From: a virus
Length of the DNA: 27,204 bases
IMG/VR virus record: IMGVR_UViG_3300010370_000195
Location: 1 to 27,204 of that record
Direction: 5' to 3' (one strand)
Shown: piece by piece, positions 3,274 to 26,633 of the stretch
Numbering within the stretch: the first letter of the stretch is position 1
Layout of the letters: each line of letters opens with the position of its first letter
Made by a program: the position numbers and the translations under genes
Notes under the pieces: model-generated
What the model saw: only the letters and a program-made list of their open reading frames with translations
Told to the model about the DNA's origin: nothing
Database searches by the model: none

Positions 3274-4029
3274 ATGCCAACAAAAAGAAACGCTCCGAAA
3301 ACACCAGTTCCATTTGGTATGAGTAATAAACAAATGAAACGCAGAAAGCCAATCAATTCTGATTTGATGAGGACTATTGATCCTCTTACTGATAATCAAG
3401 AAGAGTTTTTTAAATCCTATAAATTAGATCAGAATATCGTTGCTTATGGATGTGCTGGAACGGGTAAAACGTTCATTGCACTTTATAATGCACTGAAAGA
3501 TGTTCTTGACGAAAGATCTCCTTACGAAAAAATCTATATCGTTAGATCTTTAGTAGCAACAAGAGAGATTGGTTTTCTTCCCGGTGATCACGAAGATAAG
3601 TCATCACTTTACCAAATTCCTTATAAGAATATGGTAAAGTTTATGTTTGAGTTGCCAACGGACGCAGATTTTGAAATGCTCTATGGTAATCTTAAAACAC
3701 AAGGAACTATTAGTTTTTGGAGTACTTCGTTCATTCGTGGTACAACTCTGGACAATTCAATCATTCTTGTTGATGAATTTCAAAACTTGAACTATCACGA
3801 ACTTGATAGTATAATTACTCGTGTAGGTGAAAACAGTAAGATTATGTTCTGCGGAGACGCAACGCAATCTGACCTTGTTAAAACAAATGAAAAGAATGGA
3901 ATTATTGATTTTATGAAAGTTCTTCGCATAATGCCTTCAGTTGATATTATTGAATTTGGAGTAGAAGACATTGTTCGCTCTGGATTAGTGAAAGAATATA
4001 TCCTAGCGAAAATGGAAGTTGGTGTATGA
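3274..4029 (+). CDS. phoH: PhoH-like P-loop ATPase
   Basis: A 251-residue protein. Walker A is GCAGTGKT at residues 59-66; Walker B is in SIILVDEFQN around residue 165, and 'MFCGDATQSD' after it is the sensor-like motif of PhoH proteins. The N-terminus is basic. PhoH-family ATPases resemble the helicase core and are found in most marine T4-like phages; a role in RNA metabolism or phosphate stress has been proposed but is not proven. The stop overlaps the next start (ATGA). It stands between thyX and an exonuclease gene, in keeping with a nucleic-acid role. Confidence 0.93.
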   Translation: MPTKRNAPKTPVPFGMSNKQMKRRKPINSDLMRTIDPLTDNQEEFFKSYKLDQNIVAYGCAGTGKTFIALYNALKDVLDERSPYEKIYIVRSLVATREIGFLPGDHEDKSSLYQIPYKNMVKFMFELPTDADFEMLYGNLKTQGTISFWSTSFIRGTTLDNSIILVDEFQNLNYHELDSIITRVGENSKIMFCGDATQSDLVKTNEKNGIIDFMKVLRIMPSVDIIEFGVEDIVRSGLVKEYILAKMEVGV

Positions 4030-9838: not shown

Positions 9839-10771
9839 ATGCCTACTCCAAGGTCAGTAGATAATATAAAATCGAAGTTGTTGCATCCTGCATTAACTTC
9901 TCATTTTGAAGTATCTATAGGTCTGCCTCAATATAGAGGAAGTTCCGAAGGATTTTTAAGGTATTTAAATGAAAATGGCGTTCAATATGATCAAGAAAAA
10001 TTAAATCTTCTGTGCTCTGAAGCGTCTCTTCCTGGATCAAACTTAGCAACTTTTGAAATTAATAATGACTATACTGGAGTTACTGAAAGGCACGTTTATA
10101 GAAGAATTTATGATGATAGAATTGATTTAACTTTTTATGTTGATGCGGATAACTACTTACCTATTCGTTTTTTTGAATCTTGGATAAAGTATGCTGTGGG
10201 GGAGAACATTGGTGATGGAACAGGAGCTCCACCACTTAGAGGGTCCGCAAACCCAAACTATTTTTATAGAGTTAGATATCCAGAACTTTATATATCAAAA
10301 CAGGGATTAACAATTACAAAATTTGAAAGAACAAATACTACAAATAAGGATGGGTCTTACACCCCAAAATCAACCTTAGAATATAATTTTGTAAATTGTT
10401 TTCCAATTTCAATTACATCAATACCTATTTCCTATGATACTTCTTCATTATTAAAATGTACTGTTTCTATAAGTTATATTAGATACTATATTAATAGGAC
10501 AAATGATAAAATGGAAAGTAATGAATTTATAGCAACTCAGGGTGATGCGAGTAGTCCAATTAATCAAGCAACTTTTAACAGTGCTCCTGACTACTTCTTA
10601 AATCCGCAATTTGGAGTAGAAACATTACCCGTAGGTTCAAAGTCTGATATAACTTCTCAAATAAGAGCAGCAGAAATAGAAAGAAGTTTGGGTAATAGTG
10701 ATGCTGGAAATTCATTCCTCAATTCCTATGTAAGAAAAAGCGGAAATCAGGTTGGACGCATAGGACCCTGA
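9839..10771 (+). CDS. gp54: Baseplate-tail tube initiator gp54
   Basis: A 310-residue protein close to the length of T4 gp54 (320 aa), which seeds tail-tube polymerisation on the baseplate together with gp48. 'HFEVSIGLPQYRGSSEGFLRYL', 'LNLLCSEASLPGSNLATFEINNDYTGVTERHVYRRIYDDRIDLTFYVDADNY' and 'RFFESWIKYA' form the tube-protein-like fold seen in gp54 and gp19. The first gene of the plus-strand structural module, divergent from gp4. No strong SD is visible; AAGG sits about 18 nt upstream, so the start could be weak or the mRNA start may be very close. Confidence 0.87.
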   Translation: MPTPRSVDNIKSKLLHPALTSHFEVSIGLPQYRGSSEGFLRYLNENGVQYDQEKLNLLCSEASLPGSNLATFEINNDYTGVTERHVYRRIYDDRIDLTFYVDADNYLPIRFFESWIKYAVGENIGDGTGAPPLRGSANPNYFYRVRYPELYISKQGLTITKFERTNTTNKDGSYTPKSTLEYNFVNCFPISITSIPISYDTSSLLKCTVSISYIRYYINRTNDKMESNEFIATQGDASSPINQATFNSAPDYFLNPQFGVETLPVGSKSDITSQIRAAEIERSLGNSDAGNSFLNSYVRKSGNQVGRIGP

Positions 10772-10804: not shown

Positions 10805-11524
10805 ATGCCTTTACCTAAGATTAGTACGCCAACTTATGAAGTTGAATTGCCATCAACAGGAGAAACAATCCAATACAGACCGTTTCTGGTAAAAGAAGAA
10901 AAGGTATTAGTCATTGCTTTGGAAAGCGAAGATACAAAGCAAATTACTAATGCAATCAAAACAGTTATCAAGAATTGTATTTTAACAAAGGGAGTTAAGG
11001 TAGAAACACTCCCTACTTTTGATATTGAATATTTGTTCTTGAATATTCGTGGTAAGTCTGTTGGTGAAGAGATTGAAGTCAATGTAATCTGTCCAGATGA
11101 TGAACAGACTACAACGACAGTAAAAATTGATTTAGATTCAATCAAAGTTCAAAAGAACGAAGATCATACAAATAAAATTAAAGTCGATAAAAATATTATG
11201 ATGGAGATGAAGTATCCATCACTTGAACAATTTATTAAAAACAATTTTGATTTCACTGATGCAAATGCAATGGATCAATCTTTTGAATTGATTGCATCTT
11301 GCATTGATAAAATTTATACCGAAGATGAAGTTTGGTCCACTTCAGATGTAACTAAAAAGGAACTTAATGAATTCTTGGAACAGATGAATTCATCACAGTT
11401 CAAAGAAATTGAAAAGTTTTTTGAAACAATGCCTAAACTTTCTCATAAGGTAAAGGTAACAAATCCAAACACCCAAATAGAAAGTGAAGTGGTGTTAGAA
11501 GGGTTAGCATCTTTTTTCGCATAG
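10805..11524 (+). CDS. gp26: gp26-like baseplate hub / tail assembly chaperone
   Basis: A 239-residue protein (T4 gp26: 208 aa). The N-terminal 'LPKISTPTYEVELPSTGETIQYRPFLVKEEKVLVIALES' block is the hallmark of gp26-type proteins. The rest is helical and charged. SD AGGA is placed 5 nt upstream. It is the first gene in the group gp26 - short ORF - tape measure, the position that tail assembly chaperones take in other tailed phages. The last codons TCT TTT TTC before GCA TAG contain a perfect -1 slippery heptamer, and the next ORF is in the -1 frame, so a ribosome slip would make a longer fusion of about 303 residues. Confidence 0.85.
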   Translation: MPLPKISTPTYEVELPSTGETIQYRPFLVKEEKVLVIALESEDTKQITNAIKTVIKNCILTKGVKVETLPTFDIEYLFLNIRGKSVGEEIEVNVICPDDEQTTTTVKIDLDSIKVQKNEDHTNKIKVDKNIMMEMKYPSLEQFIKNNFDFTDANAMDQSFELIASCIDKIYTEDEVWSTSDVTKKELNEFLEQMNSSQFKEIEKFFETMPKLSHKVKVTNPNTQIESEVVLEGLASFFA

Positions 11525-11542
11525 CAATGGTCCATATGGACC
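11512..11542 (+). promoter_or_regulatory. Candidate programmed -1 ribosomal frameshift site
   Basis: T TTT TTC (11512-11518) fits the X XXY YYZ rule in the frame of the gp26-like gene, two codons before its TAG stop. Ten nt downstream a perfect stem-loop GGTCC-ATAT-GGACC (11529-11542) could act as stimulator. The -1 frame is open from the slip site through the whole 62-codon ORF that follows (to 11715). Confidence 0.6.
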
Positions 11543-11715
11543 TGGAAAGTTATTTTCGTCTTAACTTTTCCTTGATGCAGTATCATAAATATTCATTAAC
11601 GGAGATTGAAAATATGATGCCGTGGGAACGTGATGTTTATGTTGAACTTTTAAAGCAGCATCTGGAAGAAGAGAAAACGAAACAACAGCAATTAAATGGC
11701 ACCCAATTCTTCTAA
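11527..11715 (+). CDS. Short ORF after gp26, likely T-like chaperone extension (gp51 position)
   Basis: 62 codons starting at ATG 11527, two bases after the gp26 stop, with no Shine-Dalgarno sequence. The protein has 'LESYFRLNFSLMQYHKYSLTEIENMMPWERDVYVELLKQHLEEEK'; the pattern 'YSLTEIENMMPWERDVYVELL' is like the small second domain of tail assembly chaperones, e.g. gpT of lambda's gpG-T. In T4 the gene after 26 is 51, a hub assembly factor. It could be made by -1 frameshifting from gp26 (fusion), by termination-reinitiation, or both. Its end overlaps the tape-measure-like gene by 20 nt. Expression mode is inferred. Confidence 0.7.
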   Translation: MVHMDLESYFRLNFSLMQYHKYSLTEIENMMPWERDVYVELLKQHLEEEKTKQQQLNGTQFF

Positions 11716-13993
11716 AAATTTACCAGCACTGATGCCGTCTAAGGCAAAGAATGGGAATGCCTTAGTGAATGAAAAAATTGATGAAAGAATTCTCAGGATG
11801 CTTGGTCTTGAAGATATCTTTGATATTGATTATGATACTTATTCATCTCTTCTGAGAGAAAGAATGGGTGCTGCTAGAATGACGAAGCAGAGAATTCCAA
11901 CCGAAGAAGTTGAATTAATTACTGATGAATGGAAAAGAATTAAAGGTAAGAAGGGACGATTTAAAGTCAAGAAAATTACAGCAGCAAGTTTTAAAAAAGG
12001 AACTGCTGCTGGCATCAACCTAAAAAAACAAAAATTACTTCCTGGCGTTGGACAGTTAGCACTTCCACCAGCAACTGAAAAGATGACTGGGAAAAGTGAC
12101 ATTCAAGAAATTATTGGATTGTTGGGAGAGATTATTCAAAGCCTAACCCAACAAAATACAAATCAAAAGAAAGCAAACGAAAAGTCAAGAAAAGAAGCAG
12201 AGAATGCAAAGAGATCCTTAGCAGAATCAAAACTTGAAGGTGGTTTCAAAGCAGCAATTAAGGTAGCAGAAAAAGTTTTAGCGCCAGTTAAGTCTTTACT
12301 GAGAAAAATTATTGATTATTTCACGGCTATTTTTATTGGTAGATCTATATTCTTACTTTTAGAGTGGTTTGGTAATCCAGATAACCGCAAAAAACTTGAA
12401 GTCATCGGTAGGTTTTTTGGAGATAACTGGCCAAAACTTTTAGCACTTTATCTAAGATTTGGTACACAGTTTGGAAGATTTGTTGGTGGTCTTTCTAAAC
12501 TTGTAATTGCAGGTACACTAAAACTAGTACAATTAGCAGCAAGACTTGTTGGTGCAAAAGGAGTTGCTAGATTTTTAGGTGGTAAAGGAGGGCGACTTTT
12601 AGGTTCTGGATTACAAGTCGCAGCAACAGTTGGAACCACTATGGCGTTAAGTAGTGGTATTGAAAACTTTGGTGGTATCGGTGGAGGTGAAAAAGAACCA
12701 AAGACACCTGGATTTGCTGGCGGTGGACTAGCAAATCTTAGAAAGTTGTTTGGATTTTTTGGTGGCGGCCACGGATATGTAAGTGGACAAAAAGGTGTTG
12801 ATAAAATTCCTGCAATGCTAAGTGATGGTGAATTCGTTATGTCTCGCGGAGCAGTTCAAAAGTACGGTGTTGGTACGCTTGAATCAATGAATGCTGCTGG
12901 TGGTGGAACCAACAGACCACGAATGATTAGTGGAACAGCATATGCTCAGGGCGGTGGATTGATTGGCAAATCTCCTGATACAAAAGAAAAACCACCCGAA
13001 AAAACTTTTAGACCTGATTCATTAAAAGGAACACAAGGACTTAATATTGGTAAAGGATATGCTGCAACATATAAAGGTAGAGATTCTATTGTAGTTAAAG
13101 ATGCCGTTAAAGAGAATGCGAGATATGGTGATTTTATCATTGAACCTGAAATTATCTTAAATGGAAAGAAATATTTTGCACAACAAAAAGGAAGTGATTT
13201 GATCTACACTTCAAACTTTGCAAGAGGTTTGGGTGGTCAAGTCAATAAGTATGGAGCAAGAAATAAATCTTATGGTGGACTGGGCGGCGCAATGATGGGA
13301 GGTGCCGGATTGAAGAGAGATAACAAGGCACTTCCAAAAACTAAAATAATGATGGGTCCTGATGGTCCGTTTGTTGGATATTTAAGATTTAGAAATGGAC
13401 AACCAGAATATGCAAGAGCACAACAAAGGCAATTAGGGTTCTTAGAACAACTTGCAAATGTTTTTAATTCAAAAGGAACAAAGGCACGAGAAGAAACTTT
13501 GAATGCAAGATCAATGCGTCTTGCTGCAATTACTGATTTGGAGCAATACAGAAAGGAAGGAATGACCGAAGATAACATCAAAAAGATGTTAGGACCCAAT
13601 TTATACAGTGGAGCAGTTAATGACTCAAAAGCAAAACAGTCTAGAATTTCTAAGCAGAATGCAATAACACAAACATCCCAAAGAGCACAAGAACAAAATT
13701 ACTACAAGATGCGTGGTGTTGGTGGAATGGGTGGATTAGGTTCAAGTTACAGAGGACAGGAACTTCAACTGACTGCAAAAGCAAATGCTGCAAAAATATC
13801 TGCAACAAAACCAAAGGTAGCAGCACCAGCACCACCATCAAAACCCCCTGTTGTTGTAAGATCTAAACCTGTTGGTGGTAGTAAAGGTGGAGTTACTAAA
13901 TCAACAGGTGGAGTTCCAAGGGCACCAATCTTTGGAGCAACGTGTCCAAATCCAGAAAGAACCAAAAAGAAAAAGATACTGGGTATCTTCTAA
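11696..13993 (+). CDS. Tape-measure-like tail protein 1
   Basis: A 765-residue virion-type protein. Order: basic, charged N-terminus (1-130); coiled-coil-like stretch rich in K, E, N, Q (about 135-190); hydrophobic helical core (200-300, 'SIFLLLEWFG', 'LALYLRFG', 'LSKLVIAGTLKLVQLAARLVG'); glycine-rich region; then 'GVDKIPAMLSDGEFVMSRGAVQKYG...LESMN' (about 365-395), the sequence motif typical near the C-terminal part of tape-measure proteins; and a long glycine/proline-rich low-complexity tail. It probably sets tail length or plugs the tube together with its partner, the next gene. Located right after the gp26/short ORF chaperone pair, as expected for a tape measure. T4 gp29 similarity cannot be judged by eye. 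Confidence 0.7.
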   Translation: MAPNSSKNLPALMPSKAKNGNALVNEKIDERILRMLGLEDIFDIDYDTYSSLLRERMGAARMTKQRIPTEEVELITDEWKRIKGKKGRFKVKKITAASFKKGTAAGINLKKQKLLPGVGQLALPPATEKMTGKSDIQEIIGLLGEIIQSLTQQNTNQKKANEKSRKEAENAKRSLAESKLEGGFKAAIKVAEKVLAPVKSLLRKIIDYFTAIFIGRSIFLLLEWFGNPDNRKKLEVIGRFFGDNWPKLLALYLRFGTQFGRFVGGLSKLVIAGTLKLVQLAARLVGAKGVARFLGGKGGRLLGSGLQVAATVGTTMALSSGIENFGGIGGGEKEPKTPGFAGGGLANLRKLFGFFGGGHGYVSGQKGVDKIPAMLSDGEFVMSRGAVQKYGVGTLESMNAAGGGTNRPRMISGTAYAQGGGLIGKSPDTKEKPPEKTFRPDSLKGTQGLNIGKGYAATYKGRDSIVVKDAVKENARYGDFIIEPEIILNGKKYFAQQKGSDLIYTSNFARGLGGQVNKYGARNKSYGGLGGAMMGGAGLKRDNKALPKTKIMMGPDGPFVGYLRFRNGQPEYARAQQRQLGFLEQLANVFNSKGTKAREETLNARSMRLAAITDLEQYRKEGMTEDNIKKMLGPNLYSGAVNDSKAKQSRISKQNAITQTSQRAQEQNYYKMRGVGGMGGLGSSYRGQELQLTAKANAAKISATKPKVAAPAPPSKPPVVVRSKPVGGSKGGVTKSTGGVPRAPIFGATCPNPERTKKKKILGIF

Positions 13994-13996
13994 CCT

Positions 13997-16765
13997 ATGG
14001 AACGTAAAGCACTTCCTCCTGCAAAAATTAGCGCGATTAAACTTTTCAATAAGTCTAGTTCTCTTGTAAAGTCAAAGAGAATCGATGCTGCTTCTCTAAA
14101 AAAAGAATCTCCTCAATCTGAAATTATTATTGTAAAAAAACAAGTCATCAAGATTAAAGACTTGATTGCAACAAATACTTTACTGAAAGCACAGGAAGAA
14201 GAGCGAAAGAGAAGAGCGACAGAGCAAAAAAGATTTGCAGAAAAAGAAGATAAACTTGAAAAACCAAAAGAAGAAGGTGCTGGAAAAATAAAACTTCCTA
14301 CTGCACCAAAGTTAGGTTTTCTTGATCGTATCAAAAAGTTTCTGTTCAATGTTCTTTTAGGGTTTGTTGTATATCGTTTAATACCACACATTCCCAAACT
14401 TATGGGAGTTGCAAAACTAGCAGGTCAAGCACTTGATTTTATAACTGATTGGGGTGGTAAACTCTTAAATGGTTTGGTAACATTTGTTGATTGGGGATAC
14501 AAAGCATATGATAATACAAAGGTATTCTTAAAAGGACTTGGTGGAGAAAACTTCACAAAAGTTTTTGATGGATTTATTGGTGCAATGGATAAAGTGATTG
14601 AAGCAAGCATCATTGCTGCGATTGCTTTTGGTGAACTGGGTGGTGATGGTGGTGGACCCGATGTTACTAAACCAGGAAAAGGTGTCTTTGGTAGAGGACT
14701 TGGTAGAGCAGCAACAAGACTTGGACTGAAAACAATTGGAAGAGGTGGAATAAAAGCAGTCATACGATTAGCAAAACCTCTACTCTCTAGAGTACCGATC
14801 ATTGGTGGTTTGCTTGAATTTGGATTATCTTGGGCTCTTGGAGATCCAATAGGTAAAGCACTTCTTAGGGGTGCAGGTTCTTCTATTTTAGGTGTTGTTG
14901 GTGCTGCTATTGGTGGTCCAATAGGTGCTGTGATTGGCGGATATGCAGGCGGAGAACTTGCTGGATTTCTTTATGATATATTTTTAGGTAAAAAACAATC
15001 ACCGTCAGCAAAAGTTCAAGGACGTGCTGGGGGTGGATCAGTAACAAGAGGTGGAAAGTTTGTTGGTGGACCAGCAAGAAGAGAGGTAAAGAAAGACACT
15101 GCGAAAAGAGAAGTAAGTATTACTCCACCAAAATTAAAACCAGGTTCTTCTGTTGGTGGTGATGCAAAAATTCAAAAGGTATTTTCAAAGTCAGATAAAA
15201 AAGATACAGTAAGTCCACTTGGGTACACTGAAAGATTTTACGATAAAACCACCGATATACCTTTCTTTGGACCAATATTTGGTTTGGTAACAAAAACTTT
15301 ATTGGGAGACAAACCATCTGCACTTGATTATGATAATATTGGAAAAGGACTAAACTCTTGGATGAATAATACTTTCAGTGGAGAGGTGTTAAGAACTGGA
15401 GGTGCATTTGCTGGTGGTGGAGAAGTCAATGCTGAAATGTTTATGGCGGGAGAGGACTTAACAAAAGTCATTGCAAAATCAGTAGAAGAAAGTGTTTCTA
15501 CAAGACTTGATGATACGATCAATGATTTGATGCGAGAGATGATGTTAAAACCATCAATTAGACCTGCAGGTGTTCCAGGCCCTACTGATCCTGGCGCTAT
15601 GGATATGATTAATATTCAAGGCGGTGATGCTGACTTCTGGACATTGGTTGCAGTTGCTTCGAGGGAGGATGGAGATCCTCAAGCGTGGGCTGATGTAGCG
15701 CAATCAATTTATAATAGACTTGCATCTGGCGCTTATTCTGGGAAGACGATCAAGGATCTTATTCTTGGTCAGATGCAGTACGAACCAACCTGGAGATATC
15801 CAAAACCAGGAATGACTGGTAAACCAAATTCAGAATGGTATGCGATTAAAGATGCTGCAAGTGCTGCTGCAGCTGCAGGACAATCCGAAGAAGCAATGAA
15901 GAAAGTTGCTGCAGCAATTTTAGATCCAACTCTTCAAAAGAGTGCAAGAGATTTTATTCAAGGAAGAACTGACTTTAGAGGATATAGTGTTTCGGGCGGA
16001 CTTCAACGAAAGTCTGGTGATAATTATTTTGGTTGGTATAATAATTACCAAGCAAACAAAATAGGTTCGGTTCCTAACTTTGGAGCAACAGCATCTACCG
16101 GTCCCGGCCCTGGTGGAATGCAACTAGGTTCTGGATATGGATCGGAAGGAAGTAAAATCGCAGGAGAACTTGGTAGATATTTGTACAAAGTTTTAAAGTC
16201 ACCACAACAGTTCCAGGCAGTTACGGAACACCCAGAGTTTGGTGGAGTAAAAGGAACTCACGCTTCTGGTTCATATCATTATTCTGGTAGAGCACTTGAT
16301 ATTGGGGCTTATACCCACGAACAAGGACCAATTCTTCAAGCGATTGTTCAGTTCAATAAAATGAAAGGGATTAAACCTGTTCAACTTCTTCACGGAGGAA
16401 ATGATGCTGGACATAGAGATCACGTTCACGTTGCTTATGCTAAAGGTGGATTGGTTAGAGGATTTACAAGAGCAATTCTTGGTGAAAAAGGACCAGAGTT
16501 TGTTCTTGATGCAGATACTACATCAGCATTAGAACAAAACTTCCCAGGATTTTTGGGTGCATTAAACAAAGCAAACTATGGGGGGGCAATAGAAGTTTTA
16601 AGAAACTATGCTTATTATGAATTTGGAGCAGGTACAGAAGTAATTGTTGAACAATCAGAACCAGAAGTTGTTCCAGTAATGATGCCGATGCCTATGGGTG
16701 GAGATAGTTATGGTTCATCTTATGGTGAAGGTGAATTCTTTGATGGTGTTTATAACAGAGGTTAA
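13997..16765 (+). CDS. Tape-measure-like tail protein 2 with two wall-hydrolase-like domains
   Basis: A 922-residue protein. N-terminus: coiled coil (50-95), then hydrophobic core (110-330) much like the preceding protein. About residues 535-690 resemble a SleB-type cell-wall hydrolase: 'TLVAVASREDGDPQAWADVAQSIYNR' with Glu 557 as likely catalytic acid, then 'IKDLILGQMQYEPTW'. About 745-812 resemble an M15/VanY-type peptidase: 'GSYHYSGRALDIG' gives HxxxxxxD and 'GHRDHVHV' gives the HxH metal ligands. Then comes 'GEKGPEFVLDADTTSALEQ' (about 830-850), a tape-measure C-terminal motif. Together this suggests a tail component that also digests peptidoglycan during DNA entry. Both domain calls come from motifs only. 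Confidence 0.68.
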   Translation: MERKALPPAKISAIKLFNKSSSLVKSKRIDAASLKKESPQSEIIIVKKQVIKIKDLIATNTLLKAQEEERKRRATEQKRFAEKEDKLEKPKEEGAGKIKLPTAPKLGFLDRIKKFLFNVLLGFVVYRLIPHIPKLMGVAKLAGQALDFITDWGGKLLNGLVTFVDWGYKAYDNTKVFLKGLGGENFTKVFDGFIGAMDKVIEASIIAAIAFGELGGDGGGPDVTKPGKGVFGRGLGRAATRLGLKTIGRGGIKAVIRLAKPLLSRVPIIGGLLEFGLSWALGDPIGKALLRGAGSSILGVVGAAIGGPIGAVIGGYAGGELAGFLYDIFLGKKQSPSAKVQGRAGGGSVTRGGKFVGGPARREVKKDTAKREVSITPPKLKPGSSVGGDAKIQKVFSKSDKKDTVSPLGYTERFYDKTTDIPFFGPIFGLVTKTLLGDKPSALDYDNIGKGLNSWMNNTFSGEVLRTGGAFAGGGEVNAEMFMAGEDLTKVIAKSVEESVSTRLDDTINDLMREMMLKPSIRPAGVPGPTDPGAMDMINIQGGDADFWTLVAVASREDGDPQAWADVAQSIYNRLASGAYSGKTIKDLILGQMQYEPTWRYPKPGMTGKPNSEWYAIKDAASAAAAAGQSEEAMKKVAAAILDPTLQKSARDFIQGRTDFRGYSVSGGLQRKSGDNYFGWYNNYQANKIGSVPNFGATASTGPGPGGMQLGSGYGSEGSKIAGELGRYLYKVLKSPQQFQAVTEHPEFGGVKGTHASGSYHYSGRALDIGAYTHEQGPILQAIVQFNKMKGIKPVQLLHGGNDAGHRDHVHVAYAKGGLVRGFTRAILGEKGPEFVLDADTTSALEQNFPGFLGALNKANYGGAIEVLRNYAYYEFGAGTEVIVEQSEPEVVPVMMPMPMGGDSYGSSYGEGEFFDGVYNRG

Positions 16766-25086: not shown

Positions 25087-25881
25087 ATGACTGCTGGATG
25101 GGATGATGTAAATGTAGGAGGACAACTTAAAGTTGGTTCTGGTGTTGTTCCTGCAATTAAAGAAGGAGACCAAAAGATTAATGGGTCTGCCTTTATTGAA
25201 GGACCTGCTGTTTTTGGAAGCCCAACACACTTCCCAACAACATATGCAACAGTAAATATTGGACCACTGTCGAATCCAGACCCAGATTCTACGCCACCAT
25301 TTGTACCAGGTGCTCTGTGCTTACCTGTAAGTAATCCTTATGCATTATGTGTTTCAGATAATGCTGCTGTGATGGGAAACCTAGATGTGAATTATAGAAT
25401 TCAGGCAGGTGGTGACTTGATTGTATCTGGTAGTGTGATTTCCAACTGTGGTGGTCATATTCTTGCAGCAAAGAAAAACTTTGATATTCCACACCCAACC
25501 AAAGAGGGGTGGAGACTTCGCCATACCTGCCCAGAAGGACCTTCCAATGATGTATATGTGAGAGGAAAGGTTCTGAACAGAACTGAGATTGAACTTCCAC
25601 AATACTGGAAGAAACTGGTAGACTTTACAACCATTACAGTATCTCTTACACCAATCGGTGCTCATCAAGATGTAATTGTAAAACGGATTGATGAAGAGAA
25701 AGTCTACCTACAATCAAGAAGCGGAATTCCTATTCACTGCTTCTATCATATCTTTGGAACTCGTGCTGATGGTGAACGACTTATTCCAGAATATGAAGGT
25801 GAAAGTCCAGCAGATTATCCAGGAAACAATCAGGAATATTCAGTTTCTGGATACCATTATGACGTTAGAAAGGAGGATTGA
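25087..25881 (+). CDS. Fibre-like structural protein A
   Basis: A 264-residue protein with SD AAGGAG. N-terminal half: beta-rich 'VNVGGQLKVGSGVVPAIKEGDQKINGSAFIEGPAVFGSPTHF' and 'GNLDVNYRIQAGGDLIVSGSVISN', which look like fibre-shaft repeats. C-terminal half: 'PHPTKEGWRLRHTCPEGPSNDVYVRGKV..RTEIELPQYWKKLVDF..ITVSLTPIGAHQDVIVK', a conserved beta domain found at the ends of cyanophage structural/fibre proteins. It is paralogous to the next gene. Probably part of a short fibre or whisker for host contact; the exact structure is unknown. Confidence 0.72.
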   Translation: MTAGWDDVNVGGQLKVGSGVVPAIKEGDQKINGSAFIEGPAVFGSPTHFPTTYATVNIGPLSNPDPDSTPPFVPGALCLPVSNPYALCVSDNAAVMGNLDVNYRIQAGGDLIVSGSVISNCGGHILAAKKNFDIPHPTKEGWRLRHTCPEGPSNDVYVRGKVLNRTEIELPQYWKKLVDFTTITVSLTPIGAHQDVIVKRIDEEKVYLQSRSGIPIHCFYHIFGTRADGERLIPEYEGESPADYPGNNQEYSVSGYHYDVRKED

Positions 25882-25883
25882 AA

Positions 25884-26633
25884 ATGACCGCACCAGGACA
25901 ACCAAAAGACGCTGAATTTCCAGGAGAATTTGTACCATCCGCATCAGGTAAGAACTGCGACAAGGCAGCAGGTGGATGGGGTGTTCCAATGAATGATTAT
26001 GAATACATCTGGTATGGAAATATGGACCAAAATCGTTATCCAGCAGATGCCTGCGCTCCTTATTATCATAGAGCAGCACAGATTGATAACTTTAAAGTCA
26101 ACACTCTACTGGATGGTGCAGGAAGCATCAATGTAAGTGGAAGTGTTTCATCTAATGGTGGAGCACACGTTCTTTCCAATAAAAAGAATCTTCCCTTTGA
26201 TATGCCACACCCCAATAAACCAGGATGGAGACTTCGCCACGTTTGTATTGAAGGCCCCGAAATTGCTGTTTACTGTAGAGGGAGAATTTCTGGTGATGGA
26301 ATTATTAATCTCCCTTCTTTCTGGGACGGTCTTGTAAATCCTGAAGATATGACGATTAATCTCACTCCAATTGGGTCCTGGCAGGAACTTTTTGTTAAAG
26401 AAATTCGTTGGGGAAAACAGATTGTTGTTATAAACAATGCCGGCGGTCAAGTAAATGCAGACTATCATATCATTGCACGAAGACTTGATGATGATTTAGT
26501 GGTCGAATATGAAGGACAATCACACGAAGATTATCCTGGTGGTAATGAAGGATATTCATTTAACTTCGAACATAATTACGTCAAGAACCTCATTCAGGAA
26601 ACCATTCGGGAACACCTTGACAACCCCACCTGA
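25884..26633 (+). CDS. Fibre-like structural protein B, paralogue of A
   Basis: A 249-residue protein. The C-terminal two-thirds repeat the pattern of the previous gene: 'GSINVSGSVSSNGGAHVLSNKKNL', 'PHPNKPGWRLRHVCIEGPEIAVYCRGRI', 'INLPSFWDGLVNPEDMTINLTPIGSWQELFVK' and an 'EYEGQSHEDYPGGNEGYSF' end. The N-terminus is different ('YEYIWYGNMDQNRYPADACAPYYHRAAQIDNF'). I chose ATG 25884 because AAGGAGG (25870-25876) is 7 nt upstream; the TTG at 25878 inside the previous stop is less likely. The C-terminal tail 'HNYVKNLIQETIREHLDNPT' is a helix. The 3' end contains the -35 box of the next promoter. Confidence 0.74.
   Translation: MTAPGQPKDAEFPGEFVPSASGKNCDKAAGGWGVPMNDYEYIWYGNMDQNRYPADACAPYYHRAAQIDNFKVNTLLDGAGSINVSGSVSSNGGAHVLSNKKNLPFDMPHPNKPGWRLRHVCIEGPEIAVYCRGRISGDGIINLPSFWDGLVNPEDMTINLTPIGSWQELFVKEIRWGKQIVVINNAGGQVNADYHIIARRLDDDLVVEYEGQSHEDYPGGNEGYSFNFEHNYVKNLIQETIREHLDNPT

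Follow-up and report, generated by a model that had tools for sequence, protein, structure and literature searches.

A predicted -1 programmed frameshift in the gp26 tail chaperone gene of T4-like cyanophage relatives

The gp26 homologue and the small ORF that follows it in this virus record are very probably a single recoded gene, in which a -1 programmed frameshift would append a gpT-like domain to a tail assembly chaperone. The analysed virus record, referred to here as the window, has 27,204 bases and belongs to the kin of the T4-like cyanophages, and the features concerned are collected in Table 1. The 3′ end of gp26 reads ...GAA GGG TTA GCA TCT TTT TTC GCA TAG, of which TCT TTT TTC GCA TAG occupies 11510-11524, and the in-frame heptamer T TTT TTC reported by a first-pass annotation of the same DNA indeed lies directly before GCA TAG. 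The nearest -1-frame stop upstream of the heptamer is a TGA at 11485-11487, and the frame is then open through the 62-codon ORF until the TAA at 11713-11715, as the annotation had stated, so that any -1 shift within 11488-11524 would join both ORFs. The predicted fusion comprises 303 aa (...LASFFRIAMVHMDLE) with SFFRIAMVHM as the junction peptide; the joined frame is as first described, and the mass of roughly 34 kDa given for it is corrected to a computed 35.4 kDa.

Table 1. Positions of the gp26 locus features and flanking genes in the window
Feature	Position	Strand	Basis or remark
Tail tube protein, upstream neighbour	9839-10771	+	PF23849, E 9e-15; phrog_45, E 2e-33
gp26 homologue, 239 aa, 27.4 kDa	10805-11524	+	PF12322, phrog_150
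Shine-Dalgarno-like AGAAGGG	11497-11503	+	ends 8 nt 5′ of heptamer; absent from the first-pass annotation
Slippery heptamer T TTT TTC	11512-11518	+	in gp26 zero frame
-1 extension, gpT-like domain	11512-11715	+	phrog_634; frame kept in all relatives
Zero-frame stop TAG, end of short form	11522-11524	+	
Hairpin GGTCC-ATAT-GGACC	11529-11542	+	stem 11529-11533/11538-11542; 10 nt past heptamer
Second hairpin, 9 bp	11544-11570	+	single-sequence fold only; directly 3′ of first
Probable tape measure, 765 aa, downstream	11696-13993	+	weak tape measure phrog matches, E 1e-4 to 1e-5; position

The heptamer is conserved well beyond the window. Among 75 gp26 relatives from IMG/VR that are 71-93% identical, every one carries TTTTTTC three bases 5′ of the stop and has the small ORF in the -1 frame. 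When distant queries were added to give a wider set of 257 gp26 loci, an in-frame T TTT TTN was found no more than 31 nt from the gp26 stop in 253 of them; the first-pass annotation had proposed this comparison as a check, counting absence from relatives against the frameshift. The heptamer is also present in 10 of 12 further named phages. It occurs in Kyanoviridae and in some Straboviridae (Vibrio ValKK3, Aeromonas AsFcp_2, Aeromonas CC2), as well as in Stenotrophomonas, Pseudomonas and Rhizobium phages. The four loci without it are Kuja, K357, a T4-type coliphage and L175, which is one T short compared with its near-twin L174; the missing T is read as a likely sequencing indel.

The manner in which the heptamer varies indicates what is being kept. 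Its second codon is TTC in 170 loci, TTT in 54, TTA in 28 and TTG in 1, encoding either FF or FL, and the codon that precedes its TTT ends in T in 253 of 253 loci despite being any of seven codons for six residues (AGT, GAT, TCT, AAT, ACT, GGT, GCT). The combination of a variable second codon and a constant NNT indicates that the string T TTT TT is maintained rather than the amino acids. That the heptamer is a mere by-product of a conserved FF pair and AT-rich codon use has next to nothing to recommend it: the FF pair is conserved and these genes encode Phe mostly with TTT, but this would not account for the fixed third base of the preceding codon or for a TTT that stays while the codon after it changes to Leu, and FF pairs elsewhere in the same genes are mostly TTC TTT and form T TTT TTN in only 3 of about 240 cases. 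In Methylophilales phage Melnitz and its relatives the heptamer lies directly between an upstream -1 stop and the zero-frame stop, so that in these phages a shift is possible only at the heptamer itself.

Other arrangements of the same region were also seen. In a group of loci including L115, L130, L142, L145 and L151-L158 the gp26 stop lies 31 nt past the heptamer, which lengthens the short form by about 8 residues that overlap the -1 extension. Kuja, K357, phiA8-29 and VP-1 (L090, L091, L293 and L295; mostly Ackermannviridae) have a T-like ORF in the -1 frame and lack the T6 heptamer; the 3′ end in VP-1 is CAC GTT TTT CGC TAA, similar to the GTTTTT motif found in other myophages.

The downstream ORF is homologous throughout the relatives and extends 57-70 codons beyond the slip in every unique locus whose sequence includes the ORF end (204 of 206). 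Of the 206 unique loci, 75 lack any ATG, GTG or TTG in the -1 frame ahead of codon 11 past the slip, and L153, L154, L155 and L157 have no start codon within 25 codons. The same is seen in cultured phages, with S-CAM8 (predicted junction ...SFFRIALLHTNLR) and Aeromonas CC2 having a -1 ORF without a usable start codon. Taken as a whole, the missing starts in these loci and in both cultured phages imply that the downstream ORF is no gene of its own. Cyanophage records often treat it as one: GenBank annotates the small ORF as a gene in P-SSM2, S-PM2, S-RIM44 and others, with the cyanophage annotation "gp51, baseplate hub assembly catalyst", and the ATG at 11527 lies only 2 nt past the TAG, where stop-start coupling at the end of gp26 would be feasible in this window. 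An independent gene translated in this way is nevertheless very improbable, and independent initiation or coupling was rejected on the missing start codons. The records of S-CAM8, Aeromonas CC2, Syn30 and ACG-2014e have an unannotated gap at this position, and coupling would leave unexplained both the invariant heptamer and a -1 frame that is open all the way back to it. The ATG is one state of a Met/Leu position, at which many relatives carry Leu codons (CTN or TTA), and it is probably not used as a start.

Elements on either side of the heptamer point to ribosomal frameshifting. Upstream, the Shine-Dalgarno-like AGAAGGG corresponds to a GARGGN element conserved across relatives and is a probable stimulator. 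The maximum of anti-Shine-Dalgarno pairing 9-17 nt before the slip is -6.8 kcal/mol among relatives compared with -5.5 +/- 0.24 kcal/mol expected from synonymous codons. GAG serves as the Glu codon of GARGGN in 58 of 76 cases, compared with 33% elsewhere; the GAA cases are followed by GGG (15) or GGA (3) and never by GGT. Downstream, the 5-bp stem with a 4-nt loop that the first-pass annotation placed 10 nt past the heptamer was found as described and is a probable downstream stimulator, and the fold of 11519-11570 has an MFE of -14.2 kcal/mol (z -3.1). The second hairpin within this fold is not common among relatives.

Shuffling synonymous codons within alignment columns revealed an excess of structure 12-51 nt past the slip, both in the close clade (-9.0 vs -5.7 kcal/mol, z -19, n=74) and in the other sequences (-6.4 vs -4.3 kcal/mol, z -12.9, n=96), the z-scores being inflated because related sequences are not independent; most other windows show no excess over the shuffles. 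Base pairing in the 5-bp stem holds in 84% of cells, compared with at most 52% when the stem is slid, and 42 double-change cells provide covariation. About one in ten of the close relatives has no strong hairpin, and a single universal 5-bp hairpin was rejected, as the geometry differs between clades and some clades have none. The close clade has in addition a weaker excess of structure about 84-135 nt past the slip, including 11608-11647 (about 96-135 nt) with a similarly inflated z of -8.4, which precedes the tape measure start at 11696 and could bear on initiation of that gene.

The bacterial dnaX -1 signal consists of a Shine-Dalgarno-like sequence, a slippery heptamer and a hairpin in that order. 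The same three-part order is present here, and when tested as such a signal the three elements were each beyond chance. Unlike dnaX, the heptamer is U UUU UUN, the hairpin is weaker and the shift yields a fusion, not a truncated protein. These flanking elements also bear on transcriptional slippage, in which the polymerase rather than the ribosome would slip on the T run and join the frames. A run of 6-8 T exists and RNA slippage on it would yield the same fusion, but the run is usually no longer than 6 T and holds strictly to the X XXY YYZ phase while Z varies, and an upstream Shine-Dalgarno sequence with a downstream hairpin suits ribosomal shifting and not polymerase slippage, making this explanation highly unlikely.

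The protein and its neighbourhood are those expected of a tail assembly chaperone, and gp26 is predicted to be the short (TAC-N, gpG-like) form. Its gene lies between those for the tail tube and the probable tape measure, and the latter shares 20 nt with the end of the -1 ORF. The AlphaFold model of gp26 has a pLDDT of 87, and its residues 1-96 were matched by VIA-align to the solved structures 2ob9, 3fgx and 3klu as the best hits over 84-86 residues, with Z values of 7.9, 7.9 and 7.2 that are just under 8, in the range where chance similarity remains possible; the next-ranked structure has a Z of 4.9. The first of these is the HK97 tail assembly chaperone, and the other two belong to the same chaperone group. 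A plain Foldseek search of the model against the PDB gave no significant match, with chaperones appearing only at a probability of 0.2-0.4, and a profile sequence search of gp26 against solved structures gave nothing meaningful.

Several observations concern other parts of the window. Directly after the probable tape measure, a 922-aa ORF at 13997-16765 has weak tape-measure and cell-wall-hydrolase matches, and the two ORFs may divide the tape measure function between them. The overlapping adjacent ORFs at 25087-25881 and 25878-26633 share a similar stretch (VSGSV-SN-GGH-L--KKN--IPHP-K-GWRLRH-C-EGP) and probably arose by tandem duplication of a gene with a structural or fibre-related role. By eye, the ORFs at 1286-1612, 2254-2991 and 3274-4029 resemble SpeD (S-adenosylmethionine decarboxylase), ThyX and PhoH, which are usual cyanophage auxiliary genes.

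Comparison with T4 itself links the two products. T4 gp26, of the same family as gp26 of the window, and T4 gp51 each match PF12322 along their length, and residues 200-246 of T4 gp51 are colinear with the -1 product from the slip site onward (hhalign P 92-95%, E 1e-7 to 1e-8), the aligned regions starting with VFKLLVNPDEIFTFYQINH... in gp51 and FFRIAMVHMDLESYFRLNF... in the -1 product. T4 gp51 thus consists of a gp26-like part and the same C-terminal T domain, indicating that in T4 the short and the long form each have a gene of their own, with gp51 as the unshifted equivalent of the fusion. The cyanophage "gp51" corresponds to only the last ~50 residues of its T4 namesake. T4-like coliphages carry a pair of distinct, divergent genes and lack the heptamer, whereas the window has one gene and a predicted frameshift. 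No second gp26 copy or separate long-form gene was detected across 687 places in 687 phage records, and no separate full-length long gene to form a T4-type gp26 and gp51 pair was found in the window, which is a 27-kb fragment rather than a whole genome. The gpG/gpG-T reading given by the first-pass annotation is supported by the gene order, the fold match to tail assembly chaperones and the presence of T4 gp51 as an unshifted fusion.

Under the proposed mechanism, most ribosomes would stop at the TAG at 11522 and produce the short form of 239 aa. A minority would be held by the upstream Shine-Dalgarno-like sequence and the downstream hairpin and shift back by one nucleotide on U UUU UUC, with tRNA-Phe re-pairing in the P and A sites, to produce the 303-aa fusion, which carries the gpT-like domain. 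If the roles are as in lambda, the tape measure would be coated by many copies of the short form and few of the long one, and the T domain would recruit the tail tube subunit. Slippage, its rate and the roles of both forms are what we infer; what the analysis shows is the signal with its conservation, the missing starts, a fold like that of chaperones and homology to T4 gp51.

The arrangement shares with lambda G/GT its position between the tail tube and tape measure, a short product together with a rare -1 long form, a heptamer near the end of the short ORF and a downstream ORF that needs no start of its own. Unlike lambda, the proteins belong to PF12322 and are larger (239 aa), the heptamer is U UUU UUN, and an upstream Shine-Dalgarno-like element and a hairpin are both conserved. 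The -1 programmed frameshift in the lambda G/GT tail assembly chaperones is covered by a 2016 review, in which G-T frameshifting is described as conserved in long-tailed phages "except T4" (PMC5009743). The portions of a report on Vandenendeviridae and Andersonviridae that were available describe a predicted TAC frameshift at a GTTTTT motif, which likewise has a poly-T site ending the short chaperone ORF and a -1 ORF open in all genomes, and differs in concerning other families and in having GTTTTT in place of the TTTTTTN found here (PMC12846349). These portions contain no analysis of an upstream Shine-Dalgarno sequence or of a hairpin.

A literature search found no experimental proof of a chaperone frameshift in T4-like phages, in agreement with the first-pass annotation, which knew of no proven case. 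Vladimirov, Gautam and Davidson reportedly identified the T4-like tail chaperone genes in 2022. According to a paper citing that study, some T4-like phages have two genes instead of frameshifting, and a second citing paper attributes to it poly-T slippery sites in the chaperone genes of T4-like phages (PMC12846349). From these accounts, chaperone frameshifts in T4-like phages have probably already been proposed, and the novelty implied by the first-pass annotation was overstated. Among the papers searched, none reports the slip site in cyanophages; novelty may lie in the three-part signal, in the lack of start codons and in how widely the site is conserved.

These results correct a widespread annotation, in which the T domain appears as "gp51, baseplate hub assembly catalyst" or as a gap without a gene, and they explain the relation of T4 gp26 to T4 gp51. 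Ready test systems exist in cultured phages that have no start codon for the T domain. A more far-reaching account, offered tentatively and with more doubt than confidence, is that outside coliphage T4 and its close kin the whole T4-like lineage (Kyanoviridae, some Straboviridae and related phages) uses a dnaX-style three-part signal not described before, that the T4 branch replaced this signal by gene duplication and fusion of one copy to the T domain, and that the cyanophage "gp51" is no gene. That Kyanoviridae and some Straboviridae have the lambda G/GT design is strongly supported by the comparative sequence evidence, and the data indicate that most T4 relatives sampled, abundant marine cyanophages among them, use G-T frameshifting, with the coliphage branch as the exception.
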